Of a stretch of DNA of 32,062 bases, positions 2,396 through 32,062 are shown piece after piece (the first letter of the stretch is position 1; each line of letters begins with the position of its first letter). The stretch is taken from positions 1 through 32,062 of the IMG/VR virus record IMGVR_UViG_3300020473_001887; one strand, given 5' to 3'. This DNA is from a virus. The notes below the pieces were generated by a model. The model was not told the origin of the DNA and searched no databases. It saw nothing but the letters and a program-made list of their open reading frames with translations. The position numbers and the translations under genes were made by a program.

Positions 2396-3319
2396 CTAAG
2401 GTAAATATATAGCTACTCCAACACTAATAACCAATCCTATAACCAACCGTACAAAATCCCAACCAACACCAACAAAACCCTCTCGTTGCTTTTTCTTAAG
2501 AGTTTGTGTCATTGCAATTTCTCGACCTGCCAACATACCCACAAATAACCATGTAGTACTCATAGGTATGGGATTAACCACTTTAAAAACAAAGAGAAGT
2601 GAACCATAAACAAAATCTATAATAGTTACCTGTTTAAGATTAATAACTTCAGATTTTCTCTGAACAACCTGTTGTATTTTACCACCCTTGAGGTAGAAAA
2701 TAACACCAAGTAATGTAAATGTAGTTATTAAATATAATAACAATAAAGAAACTGATATTTCTCTAGGTAAAAACACACACTCGTTTGCTGTATCATGCAT
2801 CAACCAAGTTATCCATAAAAACGATGTAGAAACTACCTGTAATTTCCCCCAAAAAGGTGGTACATTATTCCACCACTGTGGATTCTTTTTAACATGTCTA
2901 GCAACTATAGTCCACAATAAAAAAGCAACAATACTTGCAACAACATACCCAGTAACCGATTTTTTTACCATCTTCATGATGGTAGGAGTACTGGCAAAAG
3001 TAGTTAAAGTAAATAGGGTAGTTGATACAGGAACGCCCAAGCGAGTTAATATCAGTAAACAAACTGGAGCCAATAAAAATTTGTATTTAAATTCTTCAGG
3101 ATATGGTATTTTGGAAAGTCTACCCCATGATAAATCACCACCATTTATAAACCATCCTACAGTAGCCGTAACTACCATAATACCACCAAACCATAACCAC
3201 AGGTGCCACCATTTTCTTTGTTTATTGGAAGAAATAAAAGTACCTAATGTTTGAATACTATCATTGGCCACCACTGCATATGCAGACAAAAAGAACCCAA
3301 ATAATAAATACATACTCAT
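2396..3319 (-). CDS. PiT-family inorganic phosphate permease
   Basis: An integral membrane protein of 307 residues with about eight hydrophobic segments. It shows the duplicated PiT signature (PF01384): VANDSIQTLGTF near the N-terminus, matching the GANDxxNxxG repeat, a degenerate second copy HDTANECVF around residue 175, and the paired GVPVSTT and PIPMSTT motifs that line the transport path. PiT carriers couple phosphate uptake to H+ or Na+. The length is short compared with about 400-500 residues for bacterial PitA. The likely role is to keep phosphate flowing for DNA synthesis during infection. A 37-residue gene stops at the base before this start codon. Family is fairly secure; ion coupling is unknown. 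Confidence 0.8.
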   Translation of the reverse strand: MSMYLLFGFFLSAYAVVANDSIQTLGTFISSNKQRKWWHLWLWFGGIMVVTATVGWFINGGDLSWGRLSKIPYPEEFKYKFLLAPVCLLILTRLGVPVSTTLFTLTTFASTPTIMKMVKKSVTGYVVASIVAFLLWTIVARHVKKNPQWWNNVPPFWGKLQVVSTSFLWITWLMHDTANECVFLPREISVSLLLLYLITTFTLLGVIFYLKGGKIQQVVQRKSEVINLKQVTIIDFVYGSLLFVFKVVNPIPMSTTWLFVGMLAGREIAMTQTLKKKQREGFVGVGWDFVRLVIGLVISVGVAIYLP

Positions 3320-3433
3320 CTATAATATATCACCACAAGTCTCCAGACATTCATATATGTCTGGGCCGAAATTTACTAAATAGTCAACATATGCTGAAAA
3401 TATACCGTAACAAATCAATACTGCCAATATCAT
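3320..3433 (-). CDS. Small putative membrane peptide (37 aa)
   Basis: A 37-codon frame starting MILAVLICYGIFSAY with a hydrophobic N-terminal half and an acidic, cysteine-containing tail ending ETCGDIL. An AGAGGA ribosome binding site lies about six bases upstream. The start overlaps the stop of the preceding frame as TAATG, and its stop TAG abuts the permease ATG. These signals argue for a translated gene. It could be a small accessory subunit of the permease or a membrane peptide. No family recognised. Confidence 0.55.
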   Translation of the reverse strand: MILAVLICYGIFSAYVDYLVNFGPDIYECLETCGDIL

Positions 3434-3612
3434 TAAAATCCTCTAAAAATATTATCGTTAATAGGAATAAAAGGTTGTTTTGGTTTTAACTTCTTTTTAG
3501 GTTTTTCCTCAACCTTCTTTTTCTCACCTTTCTTCTTTTTGAGATCTTCCGATTTTTTTCCATCTTCTAATAATTTCTTCACGACTGCCTGAACTACTCC
3601 GCTGTTTAACAT
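3433..3612 (-). CDS. Lys-rich 59-aa frame overlapping the LamG gene end
   Basis: The frame starts at ATG 3612 inside the LamG gene, overlaps it in another frame for 89 bases, then continues 91 bases beyond the LamG stop. The product begins MLNSGVVQAVVKKLLEDG, is Lys/Pro-rich in the middle and ends with a normal-looking INDNIFRGF. Its stop forms TAATG with the next small gene. No good ribosome binding site precedes ATG 3612. Alternatively, one base less in the A7 run (3553-3559) would fuse the LamG protein to this tail. The portion after 3524 is therefore very likely coding; how it is reached is unresolved. Confidence 0.5.
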   Translation of the reverse strand: MLNSGVVQAVVKKLLEDGKKSEDLKKKKGEKKKVEEKPKKKLKPKQPFIPINDNIFRGF

Positions 3613-4372
3613 TAGATTTGATTTCTCCCCACGTGGTGGTTACTTTATTTTTTGGATCAACTGAATACTCAGTTCCCCAATAATTTGCTGTTATTTCCCA
3701 AGGCCTAAGTCTTTTATTATATAGTTTTATATCATCAAACCTACCTGCAAATCCACTACCACCAAAAACAATCGGATAACCATTCATAGAACTTCTAGGT
3801 ATTTCAATATAATCAGTGCAATATGAATCTAACCAAATAGAAATTCCATTTTGTTCTGACCTAATTGCCATATAGTAATATTTAAATCCCTGAACCCCTT
3901 TGATTGTCTCTACTTGACCCTGATATACTATTCTAATCACACCTTTCCATGCCTGACCAGAATCTTGATAAAAGGTGATTCTTAAATCACCCCACCTGAG
4001 AATTTGACCGAATGGCATTAATTTTCCATTATCTCTGACTGTATGGTCTAAATTATGTTGACCAGCACCAAACTCAAAATCAAGTGTCCAATCGTCTAAT
4101 TCACGTTCGAGATATCTAGCAGGAATTGTAAAACTAGAATTAGGATCTATATTACCATGAATATGAATAACTGGTGATTTATGATACGAATACTTTTCTG
4201 GAATCCACCGTACAGTTCCCCGTTTATGTGCTATTGTATTCGACTTAAAATCCATCAAAAAATTTCTTTCATTACTAAAATCCCACATATACATTAGACC
4301 ATCACCTGTATAATAATCTGCAGAAAATAATACAGAAGTCAACAAAAACATTATAAAAATAATTGGATACAT
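3524..4372 (-). CDS. Secreted LamG/ConA-like lectin-domain protein
   Basis: The 282-residue product starts with a Sec-type signal peptide (hydrophobic residues 3-17, likely cleavage after LFSA, residue 18). The mature part resembles a concanavalin A-like/LamG jelly roll. The most recognisable piece is the terminal strand GRFDDIKLYNKRLRPWEI (about 225-242), typical of LamG_3 domains, and there is a repeated aromatic strand pattern before it. A strong AAGGAG precedes the ATG. Such domains bind glycans, so the protein may act in the periplasm or at the surface, or be part of a fibre. A signal peptide is unusual for a virion protein. The last 30 residues are basic and lie in the region overlapped by another frame. 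Confidence 0.65.
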   Translation of the reverse strand: MYPIIFIMFLLTSVLFSADYYTGDGLMYMWDFSNERNFLMDFKSNTIAHKRGTVRWIPEKYSYHKSPVIHIHGNIDPNSSFTIPARYLERELDDWTLDFEFGAGQHNLDHTVRDNGKLMPFGQILRWGDLRITFYQDSGQAWKGVIRIVYQGQVETIKGVQGFKYYYMAIRSEQNGISIWLDSYCTDYIEIPRSSMNGYPIVFGGSGFAGRFDDIKLYNKRLRPWEITANYWGTEYSVDPKNKVTTTWGEIKSNVKQRSSSGSREEIIRRWKKIGRSQKEER

Positions 4373-4398
4373 ACTCTCCTTTTTGTTTAGTTTTTACC

Positions 4399-5409
4399 TT
4401 ACACCTTATATTTTGTTGGGAAATTGTTGCGTGGGTTTCTATTCAACATTATTCTACCATTTAGTTGTTTGATTTGTTGCATTTCATCTCTCAAATATCC
4501 ACCCTTCTCTCCCATCTTGACAACAGGGCCCCTATAACCAGACCTTTTAAGGTTTGCTATCAGATCATCAGAATTTCCTACTTCACTACTAAACGAGCCC
4601 GTTTTAGAATGTACCTTTGTTGGATGGAAAATAACCTTTAAGATTTTGATTTCAGACAGAACCAATTCATCCCACTGTTGTTGTTTACCTTGGCTCCCCT
4701 TACCCATCCTCATCATTTTCTGTATCTGTTCCAGATATTTTTTATTCTTGAGAATTTTCTCAATTCCATCCATATACCACTTGATTGCCCCTGCCTTTTC
4801 CTTACCAGTACCATATGTTGATATTTCTGACCAATCTCTAATATCATCACTTCTCCAGTACCATTTTGGATCATCTGATGTAACACCATATTTCTTCTGC
4901 ATTTCAGGGTTATCGTTCTGGGCTTCGATTATGGCTTTATATCCATCCTGACGCATTTGCTTAATTTCATCAACAAAATCCTTCCAACCCTCGAAAACTT
5001 CATCGTGCCATTCTCTTTGATATAACTGACCAGCCATCAACCATCTACGTCCTTGCGTATCCCTTTGTGTAGAAAAATCTTCACCCATATCCATCACAAT
5101 TGTACCTTTCAATACACAAAAAATTCCACCTTCAGTTAAAATTCCACCACCCTGAGCAAAACTACTCTCGGAATCTTTCATATCAGTCATAGTGGAAATT
5201 TGATTTTTCTTACCCTGTAGTTTTGCAAGTTTTATGACATCTTCCATGTCTGTAACGTGCATTCCATATCCTTCACTTTTGAAATTAGTTATCCGTTCCC
5301 ACATTGGCTGTGAGAACGGTATTGGATATTCATATTCACTATCTGTAAAAATCAATTCCTTAATTTCAGTAGCAGTTCCTTCGGTGATAAATTGTTTAAA
5401 AGACTTCAT
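4399..5409 (-). CDS. Putative packaged internal protein, ART-like paralogue A
   Basis: 336 residues. It opens with MKSFKQFITE, which matches the T4 internal-protein leader MKTYQEFIAE with Glu at position 10 after I-T, a likely gp21 protease site; this suggests packaging in the head and injection. The body shares motifs with the genes at 13699 and 15428: HVTD near residue 50, LQGKKNQISTMT just after, a GGxxxEGG block, DTQGRRW near 117, and WDELVLSEIKILKV near 250. The order of conserved His, Ser/Thr strand and late Glu recalls H-type ADP-ribosyltransferases. The fold is my inference. Its start overlaps the previous gene's stop as ATGA. T4 Alt is a packaged ADP-ribosyltransferase, a precedent. 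Confidence 0.55.
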   Translation of the reverse strand: MKSFKQFITEGTATEIKELIFTDSEYEYPIPFSQPMWERITNFKSEGYGMHVTDMEDVIKLAKLQGKKNQISTMTDMKDSESSFAQGGGILTEGGIFCVLKGTIVMDMGEDFSTQRDTQGRRWLMAGQLYQREWHDEVFEGWKDFVDEIKQMRQDGYKAIIEAQNDNPEMQKKYGVTSDDPKWYWRSDDIRDWSEISTYGTGKEKAGAIKWYMDGIEKILKNKKYLEQIQKMMRMGKGSQGKQQQWDELVLSEIKILKVIFHPTKVHSKTGSFSSEVGNSDDLIANLKRSGYRGPVVKMGEKGGYLRDEMQQIKQLNGRIMLNRNPRNNFPTKYKV

Positions 5410-8210: not shown

Positions 8211-9224
8211 TTAAATTCTTTTCCATCTGTTCAGAGCTAACAGAGCCCCAAATCCCACAAATGTATTTTTATTTATCATTTTCAATATTTCTCCCGTATT
8301 CACTCCCTTCAAAAAAATTTCATTAATGTCTTTATTTTTTATAACTTCTGGCCAAATAAACATCCTGTAACCGACATCTATTGCCTTCTTCATTCTCCTA
8401 ATAGTATCATAATTTCTTGGTTCATTATCATAAACCATAATTGCTTTATCTTTCGGAATTATGTTTGATAAAGAATCACAATCACCACCACCCATAGCAA
8501 TACAATTATCAAGAAACATACTATCAAAAGGGCCTTCAACCACGTATATATCTTTAGTATAGTTGATTTGATCCAATCCATAAATTTTTAACGCATCATC
8601 CCATATTTTAATAGTAACATAACGTTTATTATGTTCAACTGTAGTAACAGCTCTACCCTGCAACATCATCAAATCTTTTTCACGACTATAGAAAGGAATA
8701 ATTATCCTACCCTTGTCATCTGAAAGGTTTGGATATTTATCAGGAACTAAGTCATGCACAAATCTATCAAAAATGTTAGTGTAATATAGATTTTTCTTGA
8801 ATGGAATTTTTCGTTCTTTTAAAAATTTCACTGCCACGTGGTCATTATCAAGATCATCTACCAATGTCAAATATTTATTTGACGATAATTTAGGTTTAAA
8901 GTTAGGTTGTTCAAAGGTAATACTTGGTTGTATCTTGGTTTGTTTGATATTTACACTTTTCAATTTCTCCAATTTATACTGTTTAAACAGACTATCATTA
9001 TTATCCTTAAGGAAAGTTGATACAGTTTTACCAATACCACAATTATGGCACTTGTAATACATATCAGTCTTTTTTCGATAGAAAAATCCTCTGGCCTTGT
9101 ACTGATTTTTAGCTGAATCACCACAATATGGACAACGGAAATTATACAAATATTCTTTTTTTCTGGAAAATCGACTCAGAGTAGAACCGACCAGTTCAAT
9201 ATATTTAATATCAATGTATATCAT
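8211..9224 (-). CDS. 61: DNA primase, T4 gp61-like
   Basis: Synthesises RNA primers for the lagging strand with helicase gp41. The 337-residue length matches T4 gp61 (about 340). An N-terminal zinc ribbon uses CPYC (31, 34) and CHNC (59, 62). A TOPRIM domain follows, with VVEGPFDSMF (catalytic Glu) and the MVYDNEPR acidic strand. It is the first gene behind a strong sigma70-like promoter at 9235-9264, only 10 bases upstream of the ATG, so the transcript would have a very short leader or none; no Shine-Dalgarno sequence is evident. It lies away from the rest of the replication genes and next to nrdJ. Confidence 0.88.
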   Translation of the reverse strand: MIYIDIKYIELVGSTLSRFSRKKEYLYNFRCPYCGDSAKNQYKARGFFYRKKTDMYYKCHNCGIGKTVSTFLKDNNDSLFKQYKLEKLKSVNIKQTKIQPSITFEQPNFKPKLSSNKYLTLVDDLDNDHVAVKFLKERKIPFKKNLYYTNIFDRFVHDLVPDKYPNLSDDKGRIIIPFYSREKDLMMLQGRAVTTVEHNKRYVTIKIWDDALKIYGLDQINYTKDIYVVEGPFDSMFLDNCIAMGGGDCDSLSNIIPKDKAIMVYDNEPRNYDTIRRMKKAIDVGYRMFIWPEVIKNKDINEIFLKGVNTGEILKMINKNTFVGFGALLALNRWKRI

Positions 9225-9234
9225 AACAAGACAT

Positions 9235-9264
9235 ATTATACCACATTAGGGTATAGTTTGTCAA
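9235..9264 (-). promoter_or_regulatory. Sigma70 promoter P1 upstream of primase
   Basis: The minus strand carries TTGACA (9264-9259), an 18-base spacer and TATAAT (9240-9235), both perfect consensus, with TGG just before the -10 (extended -10). The -10 and spacer also contain an inverted repeat TATACC/GGTATA. It should drive the primase and ribonucleotide reductase block early, using host RNA polymerase. Confidence 0.85.
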
Positions 9265-9271
9265 GTCTAAT

Positions 9272-9499
9272 TTACTTCATCATTTGTATAACAGATAAAA
9301 TTGCACTAAGGATTGCCGGCAATCCTGCACCAAAAATTACTGCCTTCCAACCAACACTAATGGAAGTTTCTAGCTTAGTGAGTCTAAGCTCAAGGTGATG
9401 TAGGTGATTACATTTCATCACTTCAATTTCAGATCTCATATCGTTCATTTGATGCTCGATATTATTTAATTGTTTTTCTATACGTTCTATTTCTGACAT
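9272..9499 (-). CDS. Coiled-coil plus C-terminal membrane helix (XhlA/holin-like)
   Basis: 75 residues. Residues 1-45 are a charged coiled coil (EIERIEKQLNNIEHQMNDM, later LELRLTKLETSIS). Residues 50-72 form one hydrophobic segment (VIFGAGLPAILSAILSVI), and the chain ends at the membrane boundary. This layout resembles phage XhlA-type haemolysin/holin accessory proteins and other small tail-anchored phage proteins. No endolysin is seen in the window, so a lysis role is only a guess. It follows the sensor-like gene by 12 bases and its stop is close to promoter P1. Confidence 0.6.
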   Translation of the reverse strand: MSEIERIEKQLNNIEHQMNDMRSEIEVMKCNHLHHLELRLTKLETSISVGWKAVIFGAGLPAILSAILSVIQMMK

Positions 9500-9511
9500 T
9501 TAAATTAACCT

Positions 9512-10366
9512 CTAATCATCTCGAATATGAAAATCCAATCTATCATTAATTAAAAATATGAGGATCAAATTTGCTATACATAATACAATAATAAATCCAT
9601 AACTAAAGTATATTTTAGTTACGACTTTCCTACCAACATCTAATTGCATCTTTCTAGTAAAATCAATTAGAGGAGTAACAATTTTTTCCTTTTCGGTTTC
9701 ATAATCTTCACTGAATAGTAAAGCTATTGCTTTATCCCTATCTCCACTTTCAGCTAACTTAATAGCCTCAGTTTCCTTTATAGCAAGTAGGTCGCTTGTT
9801 GATAAACTATCGAGAAGTTTCTGTTTGTCAGACTCAGGAACGATTGTAGTTGGAATGTCTTTAAATCGTTGATCGTAAGACTTTTTAATGCCATTATCGT
9901 CATAATCTTCTCCTGCTCGGACAATTAAATGATCTTCATATGCTTTCTTATATTTATCATTTCCAGTAATTACATATTCCCTTGCCCACATAGTTAAATC
10001 TCCACTAGATTTACCCATTAATAGTACATTATATAATGACTGACTAGAGGTTATATATGCATCTTTAACGTTTAAATTATTGTTTAATATCAATAAAGAA
10101 CATATAAAAATTAATACACCAAGACCCAAACGAACATTATCAACATGAGTATTTACCCATCGAACAATAAAATTTCCATTTTTTTGAGGTGGTGTAGGTG
10201 GGTAATTAGGATATTCCGGCGGGGAAGGAATAACTTCATAATCAGCTTCACTTTCTTCTGGGGCATAACGAGGTGGGGAAGGCTTTCTTCTTCTCTCCAC
10301 CCTATTATTAGTTCTATGTTGAGTTCTTCTTTTACTTCTTCTTCTACGTCTTAGTTCTTTGTCCAT
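9512..10366 (-). CDS. Membrane sensor domain (CHASE3/4HB-MCP-like) without output domain
   Basis: 284 residues. Residues 1-40 are extremely Arg-rich, then a Pro-rich linker (about 45-62). A membrane helix lies at about 77-96 (LGVLIFICSLLILN), an extracytoplasmic helical region at 98-250, and a second helix at about 255-275 (FIIVLCIANLILIFLI), ending soon after. The loop has features of CHASE3 and four-helix-bundle MCP sensors, such as WAREYVITGNDKYKKAYEDH and GDRDKAIALLFSEDY. HAMP, kinase and methyl-accepting domains are absent. It might titrate or mimic a host receptor. The fold call rests on pattern only. ATG follows the preceding stop by three bases. Confidence 0.6.
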   Translation of the reverse strand: MDKELRRRRRSKRRTQHRTNNRVERRRKPSPPRYAPEESEADYEVIPSPPEYPNYPPTPPQKNGNFIVRWVNTHVDNVRLGLGVLIFICSLLILNNNLNVKDAYITSSQSLYNVLLMGKSSGDLTMWAREYVITGNDKYKKAYEDHLIVRAGEDYDDNGIKKSYDQRFKDIPTTIVPESDKQKLLDSLSTSDLLAIKETEAIKLAESGDRDKAIALLFSEDYETEKEKIVTPLIDFTRKMQLDVGRKVVTKIYFSYGFIIVLCIANLILIFLINDRLDFHIRDD

Positions 10367-16445: not shown

Positions 16446-17705
16446 TCAGAACTCCCCTTGACTTAAAACTGGAATACCTTCATACCCACTTATACCATGT
16501 TCAGTTATATCCAATCCTTCTATTTCTTCTCTATCATCCACTCGAATACCAATGGTATGTTTAATCAAAAGGAACAATGGATAACTAAGTCCAAATGCCC
16601 AAACAAAAGCTGAAATAACTCCAATAAACTGTATACCCAATTGGTTTAAACTTGCTTGTGTACTGAATAACCCAATTGCTAAAGTACCCCACGCTCCACA
16701 AACACCATGAACTGAAATGGCACCAACTGGATCATCAATTTTTATACTATCAAACAGTCTAACCGCACCTACTACAATAATACCACCAATAAAACCAACT
16801 AAAACAGCCATACTTGGAGACATAATATCACATCCAGCAGTAATTGAAACTAATCCTCCCAGAGCTCCATTAAGAGCTAAAGTTGGATCAGGTTTACGAT
16901 ATAAAAACCAACTAATCAACCCAGCACCTACAGCACCCGCACATGCCGATAAGTTAGTAATAACTGCAATAAAGGCTAAATCTCCACCAACTGAAGTAGT
17001 ACTTCCAGCATTAAATCCAAACCAACCTAACCACAGGATAAATACACCCAAAGCTCCCATTGGAACATTATGTGGTGAAATTAATCCCATTCTACCATCT
17101 GGTAAATATTTACCCTTACGTGCACCAACTACCATTGCTCCAGCTAGAGCTGCCCATCCACCAATAGAATGAACCACTGTAGAACCCGCAAAGTCTAAAA
17201 ATCCAAGTTTTTCTAACCATCCACCACCTGCATATAATCCACCCCAAGCCCACGATCCGAAAATAGGATAAATTAATCCACAGATTACTAACGAAAATAT
17301 TAAATATGAACTAAATTTAGTTCTCTCTGCAACAGCACCACTAACTATAGTTGCAGTGGTTGCACAAAATACTGTTTGAAATAATAAAAAAGCCCAGTTA
17401 AATCCTACTGAACTACCAACAGATTTAGCTTCCTCTGAAGATCCATCAAAGAAAAACAAACTAGTACCAAAATACCCATTAGAAGCACCAAACATCAACC
17501 CAAAACCAATCATCCAGAATATCAGAGAACCTATCGACATATCCATGAGATTCTTCATTACAATATTACAGACGTTTTTAGCCCTAGTAAATCCGGCCTC
17601 AACTAATGTAAATCCGGCTTGCATGAAAAATACCAAGAATGCAGCCATACATGTCCATAAAATATTTGAATGTTCCCTAAGAATTTCTAGTGTATCCATA
17701 CCCAC
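16446..17705 (-). CDS. amt: Ammonium transporter (Amt family)
   Basis: A 419-residue membrane protein with about eleven hydrophobic segments. The conserved Asp of the periplasmic recruitment site (D171 in DFAGSTVVH) and the twin pore histidines (H179; H333 in AISVHGVCG) are present, so the channel should be active. GFTLVEAGFTRAKN and the C-terminal EEIEGLDITEHG are typical of the family. It should carry ammonium into the host cytoplasm. No GlnK regulator gene is beside it. The first ATG is followed by a second possible start two codons on. It sits inside a run of leader-bearing virion genes, an unexpected place for a metabolic gene. Confidence 0.95.
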   Translation of the reverse strand: MGMDTLEILREHSNILWTCMAAFLVFFMQAGFTLVEAGFTRAKNVCNIVMKNLMDMSIGSLIFWMIGFGLMFGASNGYFGTSLFFFDGSSEEAKSVGSSVGFNWAFLLFQTVFCATTATIVSGAVAERTKFSSYLIFSLVICGLIYPIFGSWAWGGLYAGGGWLEKLGFLDFAGSTVVHSIGGWAALAGAMVVGARKGKYLPDGRMGLISPHNVPMGALGVFILWLGWFGFNAGSTTSVGGDLAFIAVITNLSACAGAVGAGLISWFLYRKPDPTLALNGALGGLVSITAGCDIMSPSMAVLVGFIGGIIVVGAVRLFDSIKIDDPVGAISVHGVCGAWGTLAIGLFSTQASLNQLGIQFIGVISAFVWAFGLSYPLFLLIKHTIGIRVDDREEIEGLDITEHGISGYEGIPVLSQGEF

Positions 17706-24776: not shown

Positions 24777-27293
24777 TTACCCAAAAAACCCCTCTAAACT
24801 ACCTACTCGTTCATGATTCCAACCAACTGCATCCAATACAGTCTTAATTGGTTCTAAGTAAGCTTTATCAAATTGTGTATTGTAATCAATGTAATTATCT
24901 AAACCAAATTCTTCTGGAAGTATATCCATAAAGCCAATAACTTTTTCTGAAATTGGGTTTGGTTCTTTCAAATATACAAACTTTATTTTTTCCCCGTTAC
25001 CAATTAAAGGATACTTGTTTTGCAACTTTTTCTCTTTAACTAAACCATTGAACATTAAACAGCCCTTGACTTGAATAGGAGTTCCCTTCTTATAGCCATG
25101 AACCGAATCAAAATATTTATCTAAACCATTAACACTTCTTGGAAAAGAGACTTGACTAACATCTAAATTACTAAACTTATCACGAAAATCATCAATGTAA
25201 TTTATAACATTATTTTCATCAGACTCTAAAACCAATTTAAGAGTTTCTTTGATTTTATCCCGACAAACTTCAGGAGTTGAGCTACGCACACACTCAATAC
25301 CCATAATTTTCAATTTGGGTTCTTCATATCTAACCCCCTCATTATCACGAACATTCAAAACATATCTTTTCTTCGCAGTCCATACACCGCGATCTGCAAT
25401 AGTTTCCCTCTCCATAACCATTCTTTGTTGATATGCACCCATATAATTCGCAAGTTCTCGATAACACTTATCTATATACGGAGAAACTTTGTCATCGCAA
25501 AAACTATCTAAAGACTCTACAATAGTATCTCTATCATCAACTGAACTTAAATATTTATCTACCAAAGAACCTAATGTCAAATAAACACTATCAGTATCAA
25601 CCGCAACGACATAATCTTCACTATCAGTATTAAGAAGTTTATTAAAATACTTATTAAGTCTATCTTCAATCCATTTGATAGATAATTGACCAGATAAAGT
25701 AATAGATTCTGCCATCTTGACATCAAAATATCTAAACCAAGCATTACCTAAAGCACCATAAGCACTGTTCAAGGAAATCTTTTTTGCCATCTGTATATTA
25801 GTATACTTAGATATTTCTGCATTTAATTTTTGTCTCTCAAAAACATCCTTAGTGGATTGTAATTCTTTCTGACATTCAATCATCTGATTTTTTGCCACAA
25901 CCCTATCAGTATACATTTTTTCCATTAACTCAGGTAAAAATCCCTGCCGCTCTGTACTATAATAAACTCCATTTGCTGTAATACATGTCTTAGGAACTTT
26001 TGGTATATCAACTTGACCAGAAACCAAATTATCAACCGTAGTAGAAAATATTGGAATATCGTTACGTATAGTATCAGGTGAGATATTATATTGCATAATT
26101 AGATGTGGATATAGACTGTTCAAGTCAAAAGAAACTACCCAATCATGCATGCCCACCTGCGGATCTTTTACATAAGCACCTTCATATTCTCCAATCTTCT
26201 TTTCTGTTTGTCTTGGTGGAATAACTATGTTTTGTTTAATCAAATGATTATAAATTAATGCATCCCATGTCTTAACAGGTGAAAATACATCTTCATAATT
26301 AATTCCTGCTTCATATGCAATCGTCATTGCCAATTCGATAAGTTTCATCTTATCTTCAAGACGATCAACTAATTCCACATCCTTAATATTATATTCAATA
26401 AATTTTTGATAATCAGACTTATAGAACCAGTAAAAATTACCATACTCCTCATAACTAAGTTTTTTCTCACCTAATTCAACATACGCAATATGGTCTAGCT
26501 TATAACTTTCTTGATTGACATAGGTAAACTTCTTATACAAATCCATAAAATCTAATATTGCAATACCAAACAAACTATATACCACATGTTGTCTACCCAT
26601 GTATGTAATAGTTCCTTCATTCACCACACCCCATGGCGACAATGGTTTGACTGCCTTCTCACCCATCAAATAAGAAATTCTACGAACTAAATACGGTATA
26701 TCATAAAATTTACAATTCCATCCAGTAACAATATCAGGATTGATTACTTGCCAAATCTCAATAAACTTTTCCAATAACGTATTTTCATCACCACAATTCA
26801 AATAATGAACATCTTCACGATCTGTATGAAAATGTCCAACCCCTAATGCATATATATCACCTGTTTTACTATCCTTCATTGTAATTGCATTTATCTTTTC
26901 TTTCACACTTTCAACATCTGGAAACCCATGTTCACATTCTACTTCGATGTCTATAGTACAAATTCTAACCTTAGATAAATCATAATCTGTAAGATCATAT
27001 TCTTCAGTTATAAATTGATGGCCCCATTGAGTATAACCATAGATATCAAAATTGTCTGTATTTTTATATCTCTCCATAAATTTACGACAATCTTGAATTG
27101 TGCCGGGTTTAACTGAGGCCAGAGGTGTTCCATCTGAAGTTCTATAATCAACTTCACCCTTTTCTAAAGACTTTTTTCTTTGAAGATATAAGGTAGGCTG
27201 GAAAGAATCACGATATTTAACTGGTTCACCATCATCAATTTCACGAACTAAAATATCATTATTTCTATATTGTATATTAGTATAAAATCTCAT
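24777..27293 (-). CDS. 43: DNA polymerase, family B, T4 gp43-like
   Basis: Replicative polymerase with proofreading. 838 residues (T4 gp43 is 898). Exonuclease motifs: D115-I-E117 (TIDIEVE) and GWNCKFYDIPYL (191-202). Polymerase motif A DLNSLYP (390-396), motif B KISLNSAYG (505-513), motif C VDTDS (D566, D568). The C-terminus GSLEGFFG should bind the sliding clamp, as the tail of T4 gp43 does. ATG 27293 is chosen because the N-terminus MRFYTN fits the family; an in-frame TTG lies at 27311. There is no Shine-Dalgarno, and the start lies just past a terminator hairpin, so expression needs read-through. Confidence 0.96.
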   Translation of the reverse strand: MRFYTNIQYRNNDILVREIDDGEPVKYRDSFQPTLYLQRKKSLEKGEVDYRTSDGTPLASVKPGTIQDCRKFMERYKNTDNFDIYGYTQWGHQFITEEYDLTDYDLSKVRICTIDIEVECEHGFPDVESVKEKINAITMKDSKTGDIYALGVGHFHTDREDVHYLNCGDENTLLEKFIEIWQVINPDIVTGWNCKFYDIPYLVRRISYLMGEKAVKPLSPWGVVNEGTITYMGRQHVVYSLFGIAILDFMDLYKKFTYVNQESYKLDHIAYVELGEKKLSYEEYGNFYWFYKSDYQKFIEYNIKDVELVDRLEDKMKLIELAMTIAYEAGINYEDVFSPVKTWDALIYNHLIKQNIVIPPRQTEKKIGEYEGAYVKDPQVGMHDWVVSFDLNSLYPHLIMQYNISPDTIRNDIPIFSTTVDNLVSGQVDIPKVPKTCITANGVYYSTERQGFLPELMEKMYTDRVVAKNQMIECQKELQSTKDVFERQKLNAEISKYTNIQMAKKISLNSAYGALGNAWFRYFDVKMAESITLSGQLSIKWIEDRLNKYFNKLLNTDSEDYVVAVDTDSVYLTLGSLVDKYLSSVDDRDTIVESLDSFCDDKVSPYIDKCYRELANYMGAYQQRMVMERETIADRGVWTAKKRYVLNVRDNEGVRYEEPKLKIMGIECVRSSTPEVCRDKIKETLKLVLESDENNVINYIDDFRDKFSNLDVSQVSFPRSVNGLDKYFDSVHGYKKGTPIQVKGCLMFNGLVKEKKLQNKYPLIGNGEKIKFVYLKEPNPISEKVIGFMDILPEEFGLDNYIDYNTQFDKAYLEPIKTVLDAVGWNHERVGSLEGFFG

Positions 27294-27319
27294 AAAATAA
27301 AAAGGGGGCAATTGCCCCC
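27294..27319 (-). terminator. Terminator hairpin between hsp20 and gp43
   Basis: GGGGGCAATTGCCCCC (27304-27319) is a perfect palindrome with a six-base GC stem and AATT loop. On the minus strand it is followed by TTTTTATTTT, then the polymerase ATG. It should end the hsp20 transcript, or attenuate transcription into gp43. Confidence 0.85.
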
Positions 27320-29630: not shown

Positions 29631-30308
29631 TTACTCCTTACCTTTAAAAACAGAATCGGGTTCTAGTGCAATCCAGTATTGTAAATCTAAATCCTTATGT
29701 GAAAAATGACTAATCGCCTTCTGTGAAATTTCTACATCATAATCTCCAGTGAACAATTTCAAATTCTCAACCTTAAAATACATATCATATGTTGAGCCAT
29801 CTCCATTTCCAACATCTAATGTAAACGTATTAGTTGTTGGGTCGTTCTTATCCCATATAGTCAAACTAATAATATCACCATTACTTGTAACCTTCAAATC
29901 TCCCTTCTGTAAGATAGAAGCCATTGTCTTAACTGTGTTTAAATCATCCTGAGTAAATTCAAACTTAATATCAATTTCTGGCATATTAACATCAGAAGTA
30001 GGGGAAACCACTGTACTTGGATCAGCATAAAAATAACTAGACTTTGCTTTGTCTTTTGCTAAAGTTACCTTATCTTGATTAAATTCATACTCTGCACCAA
30101 AGAATACACTAGATTTGATAAGACTTAAAAACTCATTCAAATCATAAATCGCAAAATCATTTGGCCAAGTTTCATGTACTGTAACCCTTGCAAGAATATT
30201 TTTCATCGCTGAAATTGTTTGAAGTTCATTTCCACTATTTACCATAATAGATGAATTAATTGATGAAAAGTTACTTAAAATATCAATGGTTTGTTTACTA
30301 ATTTGCAT
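29631..30308 (-). CDS. 45: Sliding clamp, T4 gp45-like
   Basis: 225 residues (T4 gp45 is 228), acidic, beta-rich, two-domain layout with a Ser-rich connecting segment at about 100 (STVVSPTSDVNMPEID). Identification rests on size, on the gp45-gp44-gp62-regA order and on segments such as DFAIYDLNEFLSLI and LDLQYWIALEPDSVF resembling the T4-like clamp C-terminus. It tethers the polymerase and, in T4, also links replication to late transcription. The start overlaps the end of the DUF3310 gene by 11 bases. Confidence 0.93.
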   Translation of the reverse strand: MQISKQTIDILSNFSSINSSIMVNSGNELQTISAMKNILARVTVHETWPNDFAIYDLNEFLSLIKSSVFFGAEYEFNQDKVTLAKDKAKSSYFYADPSTVVSPTSDVNMPEIDIKFEFTQDDLNTVKTMASILQKGDLKVTSNGDIISLTIWDKNDPTTNTFTLDVGNGDGSTYDMYFKVENLKLFTGDYDVEISQKAISHFSHKDLDLQYWIALEPDSVFKGKE

Positions 30309-30570
30309 CTTCTTCGATCTCCATAATCATAATTAAAATGTAATGAATAGCCTTGAATAAATCAATCTCACTATCCGAATTAAGTTTTCTTTTAAATCTT
30401 GTAATATACTTTATCGCATTCCCACGACAAAAACTATCCAAATCACCAGTAGTTCTAAGCAAATCAATCACCTGAACTTGATTATCACCATAATAATTCC
30501 CCCGTGCTTTGTTTTTAATATAAGTACTAAGCTCTCCTAAAACAATATCTAACTTATCTATCTTATCCAT
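30298..30570 (-). CDS. DUF3310-like phage protein
   Basis: 90 residues. The stretch CRGNAIKYITRFKRK followed by DLFKAIHYILIMI matches the core of DUF3310 (PF11753), a small helical family in many phages: GNxIKYxxRxxxK plus DLxKAxxYL. Its function is unsettled; some members are annotated as nucleotide kinase-like. It is the first gene after promoter P4 (-10 box two bases upstream of the start codon, so a leaderless or distal start would be needed for this gene), and leads into gp45. Confidence 0.7.
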   Translation of the reverse strand: MDKIDKLDIVLGELSTYIKNKARGNYYGDNQVQVIDLLRTTGDLDSFCRGNAIKYITRFKRKLNSDSEIDLFKAIHYILIMIMEIEEDAN

Positions 30571-30571
30571 A

Positions 30572-30600
30572 ATTATACCATATTTTTCTTAATTTGTCAA
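30572..30600 (-). promoter_or_regulatory. Sigma70 promoter P4 at the head of the gp45 operon
   Basis: TTGACA (30600-30595), 17-base spacer and TATAAT (30577-30572) on the minus strand, with TGG before the -10. The -35 overlaps the stop of the glycosyltransferase gene. The predicted transcription start falls inside the first codons of the DUF3310 gene, so it mainly serves gp45, gp44, gp62 and regA unless the start is leaderless. Confidence 0.78.
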
Positions 30601-31508
30601 GAGAAAAAAGCATCTAATCCAGTATTTTCTTTTTTCTCCCCAGAATATTCAATATCTGGAAAACTATCCTCTAATGGATCTTGATCCAAGTAATATTCTA
30701 TTATTTCCTTATTAATGTAAACGTGGCCATTTTTTCCCATTGGTAAATCGTCAGAATAATCCTTACTTATCTCCATCAAAAAAGGATGTTTCAAACCTTC
30801 TGCAATTGCCTTTGCAGAACTACAATTACCTACAAATAGTTTAGACCCCCTAATATATTGAGCTGTCTCCAATGCATTCTTAACCTCAATTCTCTTTGGT
30901 TTAAAATTGTACCGATCTACGAAATTTTGATACTCATCATCAAATCCCACAAAACCTGTATTATACTCTTTGAGTAAGGTATAATCAAAATGCTTCATAG
31001 GATTATGAGTAGATTCCCCGTTTAATATATAATCATGATATCTCCCCGAAACATTAATTAAAATATCAACCTCTGTCTTAGGATCAATATTTGTTATCCA
31101 AGCTTTATTATTATTCCATATAGGAATATCTCTATATTTCATTAAATCCAGATTAATGTTACCATATTTGATTTGAGTAGATTTTAGCTCAATACTATCA
31201 ATTTTTAAAGGAAAATGATGTGTTCGTATCCCTGCACATATAAGATTCATATAAACCAAATTCCCTCTTAAAAACAACTTATATAGTGCTTGATAGGAAC
31301 TAAAATCTAAATCAATATTAGAATCTGGTTTATTTGAATAACCAACATAATCTATATATGGCTGTGCTTCAAATAGTGGTTTTATGTACTCTGTTTCACT
31401 TTTTCTTGCTGAAATAAATCTTTTAGTTCCCCCGCGAAGATAAACTGCAGGTAAACTATAGATCATATCCCCTATTTTTGAAGGATGAAATACACCATTT
31501 AACTGCAT
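30597..31508 (-). CDS. GT9-like glycosyltransferase with clamp-binding-like tail
   Basis: 303 residues, GT-B fold of the glycosyltransferase 9 (heptosyltransferase) type. The N-terminal FHPSKIGDMIYSLPAVY matches the lGDvxxxlPa signature and the late GSKLFVGNCSSAKAIAEGL (about 226-244) the sugar-nucleotide pocket. It ends TGLDAFFS, similar to the polymerase tail GSLEGFFG, which suggests docking on the sliding clamp. It directly follows the 2OG oxygenase gene (TAATG-type overlap) and precedes gp45, so glycosylation of hydroxylated DNA bases at the fork is the favoured idea. T4 alpha-glucosyltransferase is a precedent for clamp binding. An LPS or other target is possible. Confidence 0.7.
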   Translation of the reverse strand: MQLNGVFHPSKIGDMIYSLPAVYLRGGTKRFISARKSETEYIKPLFEAQPYIDYVGYSNKPDSNIDLDFSSYQALYKLFLRGNLVYMNLICAGIRTHHFPLKIDSIELKSTQIKYGNINLDLMKYRDIPIWNNNKAWITNIDPKTEVDILINVSGRYHDYILNGESTHNPMKHFDYTLLKEYNTGFVGFDDEYQNFVDRYNFKPKRIEVKNALETAQYIRGSKLFVGNCSSAKAIAEGLKHPFLMEISKDYSDDLPMGKNGHVYINKEIIEYYLDQDPLEDSFPDIEYSGEKKENTGLDAFFS

Positions 31509-32062
31509 TAAAAAAATCCCTCAAGACTACCCGTTTCAACTTTTGGTGCATTCTTTCCAATCAACTTTTCTGGTTTACCACGAACTCCTAACGTAGCCAA
31601 TCTAGTATCACAATAACAGACACAATTCATAGAAATGCCAGTTCCATCGACATCATATACTCCATGAACTTCTCCACTATCACCCAAAAATACATCCCCA
31701 TCGCCACGAGAAATTGCCACACCATATCTAGGTAAAACAAAATAACAACCAGTAATATCCCCATCAATAAAGTTAGCAATCGTTGTAAGACCTTCTGGTA
31801 AATCTCCAGAATCTATATGATAAGACATTGCCTGAGAACCATCCTGACTATATTTGTTTGCTGAAAGAGTAGTATATATACCTCCGGCAATTCTAAATCT
31901 TTCTTCAACATATGTTTCGGCAAATTTTTTCTGTGCTTCATAATAGGATGGTGCTAACTCTCTATATGCAATATTATTAATCTGTGGAATACGACTCAAT
32001 ATATCATTTTTTTCTGGATTAGACTTCGACCAACCACTTTTATCTATTTTTCCTGTAAAACG
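31508..32062 (-). CDS. 2OG-Fe(II) oxygenase, TET/JBP-like, 5' end beyond window
   Basis: The frame is open to the right edge, so the N-terminus is missing; 184 residues are visible. A TTG at 31999 is not needed as start. The iron ligands appear as YHID (HxD), EVHG 51 residues on, and an Arg (CDTRLATLG) 21 further, a spacing similar to JBP/TET oxygenases, which hydroxylate methyl groups on thymine or 5-methylcytosine. RYGVAISRGDGDVFLGD is the expected strand before the distal His. It ends GSLEGFF, almost the same as the polymerase C-terminus, suggesting sliding clamp binding. With the next gene it may form a base hypermodification pathway. A prolyl-hydroxylase-like role is the alternative. Confidence 0.65.
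   Translation of the reverse strand, partial: RFTGKIDKSGWSKSNPEKNDILSRIPQINNIAYRELAPSYYEAQKKFAETYVEERFRIAGGIYTTLSANKYSQDGSQAMSYHIDSGDLPEGLTTIANFIDGDITGCYFVLPRYGVAISRGDGDVFLGDSGEVHGVYDVDGTGISMNCVCYCDTRLATLGVRGKPEKLIGKNAPKVETGSLEGFF

Follow-up and report, generated by a model that had tools for sequence, protein, structure and literature searches.

A TET-like oxygenase and a putative glycosyltransferase encoded near gp45 of a marine T4-like phage carry clamp-type C-terminal tails

The window, by which we mean the whole stretch of DNA that was analyzed, is a viral contig of 32,062 bases from an IMG/VR record, and its minus strand carries a T4-type replication block. Besides the genes listed in Table 1, this block includes gp44, gp62, RegA, a UvsX-like ORF, and a gp41-like ORF, as well as an Hsp20-like ORF that was assigned by eye. 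Two of its genes encode a TET-like oxygenase (TET) and a glycosyltransferase-like protein (GT). The contig ends within the TET ORF, which thus lacks its 5' part and is visible only in its last 184 codons. An earlier note on this stretch had described the two enzyme genes as adjacent and overlapping, which held, as they share one base in TAATG. The same note had placed the pair directly before gp45, which held only in part: the pair is near gp45, but the DUF3310 gene separates it from the GT gene. The near-identical protein ends that the note had pointed out were confirmed, with all three being exact in sequence: gp43 ends in VGSLEGFFG, the oxygenase in ETGSLEGFF, and the GT-like protein in NTGLDAFFS. 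As a side aspect, the window, judged by eye, also seems to encode an ammonium-transporter-like protein (16446-17705), a phosphate-transporter-like protein (2396-3319), and a run of NifU/IscA/Rieske/ferredoxin-like proteins (266-2384).

Table 1. Positions of the genes and C-terminal tails considered here, numbered along the window
Feature	Position	Strand	Basis
TET/JBP-family 2OG-Fe(II) oxygenase	31508..32062	(-)	Pfam Tet_JBP PF12851
GT-like protein, 303 aa	30597..31508	(-)	predicted GT-B fold, GT9-like type (weak)
Small DUF3310 protein	30298..30570	(-)	PF11753, 36 bits
gp45 sliding clamp	29631..30308	(-)	PF09116 and phrog_223, 1.2e-68
gp43 DNA polymerase	24777..27311	(-)	phrog_262, 1078 bits
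TET C-terminal clamp-type tail GSLEGFF	31511..31531	(-)	
GT-like protein C-terminal clamp-type tail GLDAFFS	30600..30620	(-)	
gp43 C-terminal tail GSLEGFFG, reference clamp-binding tail	24780..24803	(-)	

The visible TET fragment scored 35.5 bits against the Pfam profile Tet_JBP, for which the curated cut-off is 34.9. Among the relatives, the TETs of locus L001 and of phage Melnitz reached 37.6 and 43 bits, and the TET of L004, which is 84% identical to that of the window, remained slightly below the cut-off with 32.8 bits. A PDB sequence search with the TET profile gave no match. The full-length TET of L008, which is 82% identical to the window TET, was modeled with AlphaFold2 (pLDDT 85.7), and the predicted fold is a double-stranded beta-helix that is nearest to known TETs, the 26 best PDB matches being NgTET1, human TET2, algal CMD1, and fungal CcTET (E 1e-10 to 4e-7). 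The Fe(II) triad HxD...H is invariant in our TET alignment (A7), and the visible part of the window TET contains it with HxD at residues 82-84 and the distal H at residue 133. The Pfam profile, together with the predicted fold of the close relative, identifies the window oxygenase as a genuine TET, and the earlier assignment of this protein to the 2OG oxygenases held, with its place being inside the TET/JBP group.

The residue presumed to anchor 2OG, about 11 residues past the distal histidine, is an arginine in 91 relatives and a serine in all six TETs of the window lineage, which are those of the window (residue 144 of the visible part), L004, and L008-L011. This column was set by spacing and not by superposition. 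The six TETs share an arginine in the motif AI[AS]RGDGDV that is absent from the compared relatives L012, L030, and L069. It is conceivable, from sequence alone, that this arginine replaces the lost one, or that co-substrate handling has changed in the window lineage. A loss of 2OG use does not follow from the serine, as another arginine may stand in.

Sequence searches of Pfam, PHROG, and the PDB gave no match for the GT-like protein, and none in NCBIfam exceeded a cut-off. Its family comprises at least 26 related viral loci, most of whose proteins share 52-59% identity with the window GT, and is confined to viral contigs in the sequences searched; no relatives were detected in INPHARED phages or, by a pattern scan, in cellular genomes. 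The structure model is weak (pLDDT 58), and Foldseek gave no match at E <= 0.001. When this model was aligned structurally in a second look, WaaC, a Veillonella GT9 protein, and TibC were near the top (Z 6.7-7.9, about 190 residues), but all these GT9 matches are below Z 8 and rest on a model with a pLDDT of 58. In hhalign comparisons, the family matched E. coli GT9 proteins weakly and locally around the usual sugar-nucleotide site (probability 20%), with GT4 and AGT as controls reaching 0.1-0.3%, and the Pfam GT9 profile matched none of 17 family members at E up to 1. The profile of the T4 DNA alpha-glucosyltransferase (AGT, PF11440) did not match the window GT, whereas it did match the neighbor protein in L004. 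On this weak fold and profile evidence, the protein is likely, but not shown, to be a GT-B enzyme of the GT9-like type, and the label 'GT9-type' of the earlier note is toned down to that extent. Glycosyltransferase activity and DNA as the acceptor are inferred. The family, which has no library match, is a candidate DNA-sugar enzyme.

In the nearest lineage (L004 and L008), the gene order is C5-cytosine methyltransferase (C5-MTase, PF00145), TET, T4-type AGT (PF11440, E 4e-23; PHROG phrog_2888 alpha-glucosyltransferase, E 1e-73), and gp45, with AGT taking the slot of the window GT. The cassettes of other loci contain the window GT family, the TET-associated glycosyltransferase TAGT (PF20691), or proteins without a library match. 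C5-MTase, TET, and a GT occur in one cassette in L001, L004, L008, L092, L096, and others, and C5-MTase adjoins TET in most of the loci that extend far enough. TET was present in 15 and C5-MTase in 12 of the 22 contigs with the window GT family, the remainder being fragments of 4 to 23 kb. The earlier note had proposed a search for a methylase, and this C5-MTase was found beside TET in the nearest lineages and not in the window, where the gene, if present, lies past the contig end. As C5-MTase neighbors TET in the relatives and AGT occupies the slot of the window GT, the route most likely leads from 5-methylcytosine (5mC) via 5-hydroxymethylcytosine (5hmC) to glycosyl-5hmC, with the order of the steps being inferred.

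The conservation of the tails was addressed by a census of the ORFs in 108 sequences, consisting of the relative loci and the window. A [STN]L[ED]xFF tail was found in all 52 gp43 ORFs and a GL[ED]xF[FM] or ALEGFF tail in all 27 GT relatives, and 97 of the 101 TET ORFs ended with LxxF plus a hydrophobic residue. The other four TET ORFs are two SLEGLWV variants, an ORF of L080 that stops before the tail, and the TET of Pelagibacter phage HTVC112P. When proteins were clustered at 80% identity, the strict tail was found in 15 of 19 TET clusters (18 of 19 with the loose motif), 3 of 4 GT clusters, 17 of 17 gp43 clusters, and 2 of 2 clusters of the late sigma factor gp55, and the motif of the fourth GT cluster lies ten residues before the end. 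None of the 37 clusters of gp44, gp45, gp41, UvsX, and C5-MTase had the strict tail, and among other ORF clusters it occurred in 5 of 432, resulting in a Fisher p of about 1e-23 for the enrichment in TET and GT. As the motif was drawn up after seeing the tails, this p-value serves as a guide only, but the controls with gp45-less phages described below do not depend on it. Shuffled tails matched a slightly different regular expression in 0.2-0.4% of cases. We also considered that the whole cassette might be tailed and rejected this, as the census found the tail in 0 of 87 C5-MTases and 0 of 6 AGT proteins.

In the TET alignment, the tail leucine is invariant and the phenylalanine is conserved to 90% behind a varying linker, and in the GT alignment (A6) both residues are invariant behind a variable linker; pairwise identity was 0.9-1.0 at these two positions versus mostly 0.15-0.6 in the linkers. 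Tails of both enzymes meet the sequence sign of gp45 clients, which is an LxxF-type hydrophobic-acidic C-terminus behind a linker, as in the phage's own gp43. In the L008 TET model, the last 26 residues (299-324) are disordered, almost all of them with a pLDDT below 50, apart from a short helix formed by the tail; a docking peptide on a linker would be expected to look like this. The codons differ between gp43 (AGT TTA GAG GGG TTT TTT), TET (AGT CTT GAG GGA TTT TTT), and GT (GGA TTA GAT GCT TTT TTC), and the three window tails are therefore not a recent DNA copy. Several TAGTs, namely those of L012, L021, L036, L056, L057, and phage DLP6, also carry a clamp-type tail.

Some further tailed proteins were observed. 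An N6/N4 DNA methylase with the tail RLEDFFE is encoded at 4743-5681 of L008, directly upstream of C5-MTase and TET, and a Mom-family protein (PF25680, E 2.4e-57) with the tail SLEKFMA at 915-1709 of L084, a viral contig on which gp43, C5-MTase, and TET genes are found as well. A family of 249-264 aa, whose tails are GTLEAFI and GNLEAFFE, lies in the cassettes of L001 (5813-6562) and L014 (2682-3476) and is a candidate for a further DNA-modifying enzyme; clamp-type tails on cassette proteins without a known family were seen with this L001/L014 type and in L015 and L022.

The comparison across phages links the tails to gp45. No gp43 or gp45 match was detected in the genomes of HTVC112P, P12024L, Microbacterium phage Margaery, and Synechococcus phage S-CBWM1, and the TETs of these four groups have no tail (the Microbacterium phages Margaery and MementoMori were counted as one gp45-less group). 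TETs of gp43/gp45-bearing phages end in NLNDFLGE (Melnitz), TLGDFFV (DLP6), and SLEEFFV (C48C1), and the TET of the gp45-bearing Cr30 has the ambiguous end GATLF. The earlier note had named tails that are not conserved in relatives as a refutation, and this test was passed: the tails are conserved and track the presence of gp45. In DLP6, the polymerase ends in TLDSFFA and the TAGT in DLSSFFN; in Cr30, the polymerase ends in DLSSLFD and a TAGT-like protein (19.7 bits, below cut-off) in DLSKLF; T4 gp43 ends in SLDFLFG. Judging by the sequences of Cr30 and DLP6, the tails tend to resemble that of the polymerase encoded by the same phage. It has been published that gp43, gp55, and gp33, whose C-termini are alike, bind gp45 through these ends, which can replace one another (PMC2988020). 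Binding of gp45 is a likely function of the TET and GT tails, although this is inferred from sequence without binding data.

Two side observations concern the same phages. In the gp45-less P12024L (L109), the TAGT (3371-4129) ends in NQLEIF and a DNA methylase (4131-4766) in QQTLF, which we take to resemble bacterial beta-clamp motifs. Caulobacter phage Cr30 (L110) encodes an amino acid:DNA transferase (ADDT, PF18724, E 1e-52) at 8436-9665, near TET and the TAGT-like gene.

We propose the following mechanism. A C5-MTase encoded just beyond the contig end would generate 5mC in finished DNA, TET would hydroxylate it to 5hmC, and the GT-like protein would attach a sugar to the 5hmC. The C-terminal tails, on flexible linkers, would take TET and GT to new DNA by binding the same hydrophobic gp45 pocket as the polymerase tail, so that bases would be modified on clamp-carrying DNA, at or just behind the fork. 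That both genes encode the final enzymes of a pathway for post-replicative cytosine hypermodification in a marine T4-like phage, with clamp recruitment via the tails, is in our view likely. The TET family, the cassette in relatives, tail conservation, and the association of the tails with gp45 are shown; clamp binding, glycosyltransferase activity, the DNA acceptor, the order of steps, and protection from restriction are inferred in the absence of binding, enzyme, or DNA data. The claim of the earlier note that a base is hydroxylated and then glycosylated at the fork is in this sense supported, with docking of the tails on gp45, the activity and DNA acceptor of GT, and modified virion DNA remaining unproven.

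Some aspects speak against this mechanism or against an essential role of tethering in it. The C5-MTase is not found within the window itself, the window TET lineage has the serine described above, the TET of the gp45-bearing Cr30 has no clear tail, and the GT9-like fold is only weakly supported. C5-MTase, the enzyme of the first step, has no tail, and the untailed AGT in the same slot of L004 and L008 indicates that a glycosyltransferase there can work without one. The earlier note had invoked the polymerase tail and the alpha-glucosyltransferase of T4 as precedent, which held in part: T4 alpha-GT pulls down gp45, whereas beta-GT does not (PMC13216743, confirming the alpha-GT-gp45 interaction described by Sommer 2004). 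A shared tail among T4 DNA glucosyltransferases can be rejected, however, as none of T4 alpha-GT, T4 beta-GT, and the RB3 beta-glucosyl-HMC-alpha-GT ends in LxxFF, and the T4 alpha-GT contact with gp45 must be made otherwise. As alpha-glucosylation in T4 was found to dominate mainly for reasons other than gp45 binding (PMC13216743), the gain from tethering may be small. Tethering could possibly speed or time the reaction without being essential.

Alternative explanations have to be considered. The pathway could be real with tails that dock elsewhere, on the clamp loader, another replication protein, or each other. There are no gp45-binding data for the tails, and T4 alpha-GT binds gp45 without such a tail, but the same tail occurs on gp43 and gp55, which are textbook gp45 clients (PMC2988020), and TET tails are absent where gp45 and gp43 are absent, which makes this alternative improbable. 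We also reject the idea that the tail likeness is due to chance or to recent copying of gene ends. It is true that the motif has only about five defined positions and that three tails in one window could agree by luck. However, the codons differ, and the tail is kept across 19 TET and 4 GT clusters with the low background and shuffling rates given above, which all but excludes this possibility.

Other alternatives concern the chemistry. GT could sugar a surface or virion glycan and merely be encoded near TET. In favor of this, it has no sequence match to any DNA glycosyltransferase, its fold, as far as the weak model shows, is nearest to lipopolysaccharide heptosyltransferases, and the contigs L095 and L098 are fragments that have the GT gene close to gp45 and contain no TET. 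Against this, GT is linked to TET/C5-MTase in most contigs, its position is interchangeable with AGT and TAGT, both of which are DNA glycosyltransferase families, and its clamp-type tail is invariant; a non-DNA target is therefore unlikely. TET could also act on thymine like JBP, yielding 5hmU, or use another co-substrate, such as vitamin C in the case of CMD1, and the product would then not be glycosyl-5hmC. The serine at the presumed 2OG arginine position and the presence of CMD1 among the top fold matches are compatible with this, but C5-MTase lies beside TET in most sufficiently long loci, in the nearest lineage TET is followed by AGT, which acts on hmC, and the lineage-specific arginine in AI[AS]RGDGDV might, by inference, substitute. 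We regard this variant as unlikely as well and retain clamp-recruited cytosine hypermodification as our preferred reading.

Phages with post-replicative hypermodification must coat their new DNA before restriction enzymes meet it. It is an open question how the modifying enzymes can work as fast as the fork moves, and a portable clamp tail on an oxygenase and on unrelated glycosyltransferases would be a simple answer. The coating is inferred to be probably protective and probably added right behind the copying machine. The clamp tail is also a sequence sign by which more DNA-modifying enzymes can be found among uncharacterized phage genes. In a bolder reading, towards which we lean only slightly when all its parts are taken together, T4-like marine phages use a general clamp-tail code for DNA modification. 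The tailed set would comprise TET and two or more glycosyltransferase families that are unrelated to each other (TAGT and the new GT9-like family), with single cases of an N6/N4 methylase and Mom; the interchangeable tails would copy the phage's own polymerase tail, and one sliding clamp would serve successive enzymes in turn behind the fork. In gp45-less phages, tails like bacterial beta-clamp motifs may take this role.

Hypermodification by C5-MT, TET, and GT and the binding of T4 alpha-GT to gp45 have already been published. As far as the literature was searched, clamp-type tails common to TET, TAGT, and a new GT family appear to be new; no report of such a motif on TETs or glucosyltransferases of phages was found there, with most subscription papers being outside the scope.

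Phage C5-MT, TET, and GTs together make glycosylated cytosine (Burke et al., 2021, PNAS, pmid 34155108, cited in PMC12730594 and PMC11404850). The cassettes of the window's relatives have the same three gene types together and point to the same post-replicative route, but the set lies in a T4-like replisome context, TET and GT carry clamp-type tails, and the GT family inferred to take the sugar step has no library match. The isolated Methylophilales phage Melnitz EXVC044M (PMC9004378) has gp43, an HhaI-like C5-MTase, and TET in a row, with the TET tail SGNLNDFLGE, but its TET is annotated as 'hypothetical', and no window-type GT was found in its genome. As with T4 alpha-GT, a DNA glycosyltransferase would be recruited to gp45, with binding being inferred for the window. 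In contrast, 5hmC arises in T4 at the nucleotide level through gp42, and the AGT family is unrelated by profile to the window GT. The tails resemble the clamp-binding C-termini of gp43, gp55, and gp33 (SCBM; PMC2988020, PMC7892883) in being short, hydrophobic-acidic, and placed behind a linker, but those of the window, for which there are no binding data, are located on DNA-modifying enzymes. The GT9 heptosyltransferases WaaC and TibC are among the best fold matches of GT, with a weak profile match at the nucleotide-sugar site, whereas the window GT has no Pfam GT9 match and carries a clamp-type tail. TAGT (PF20691) is a separate family to which the window GT has no Pfam match, but it occurs in the same cassettes, and several of its members carry the same tail.
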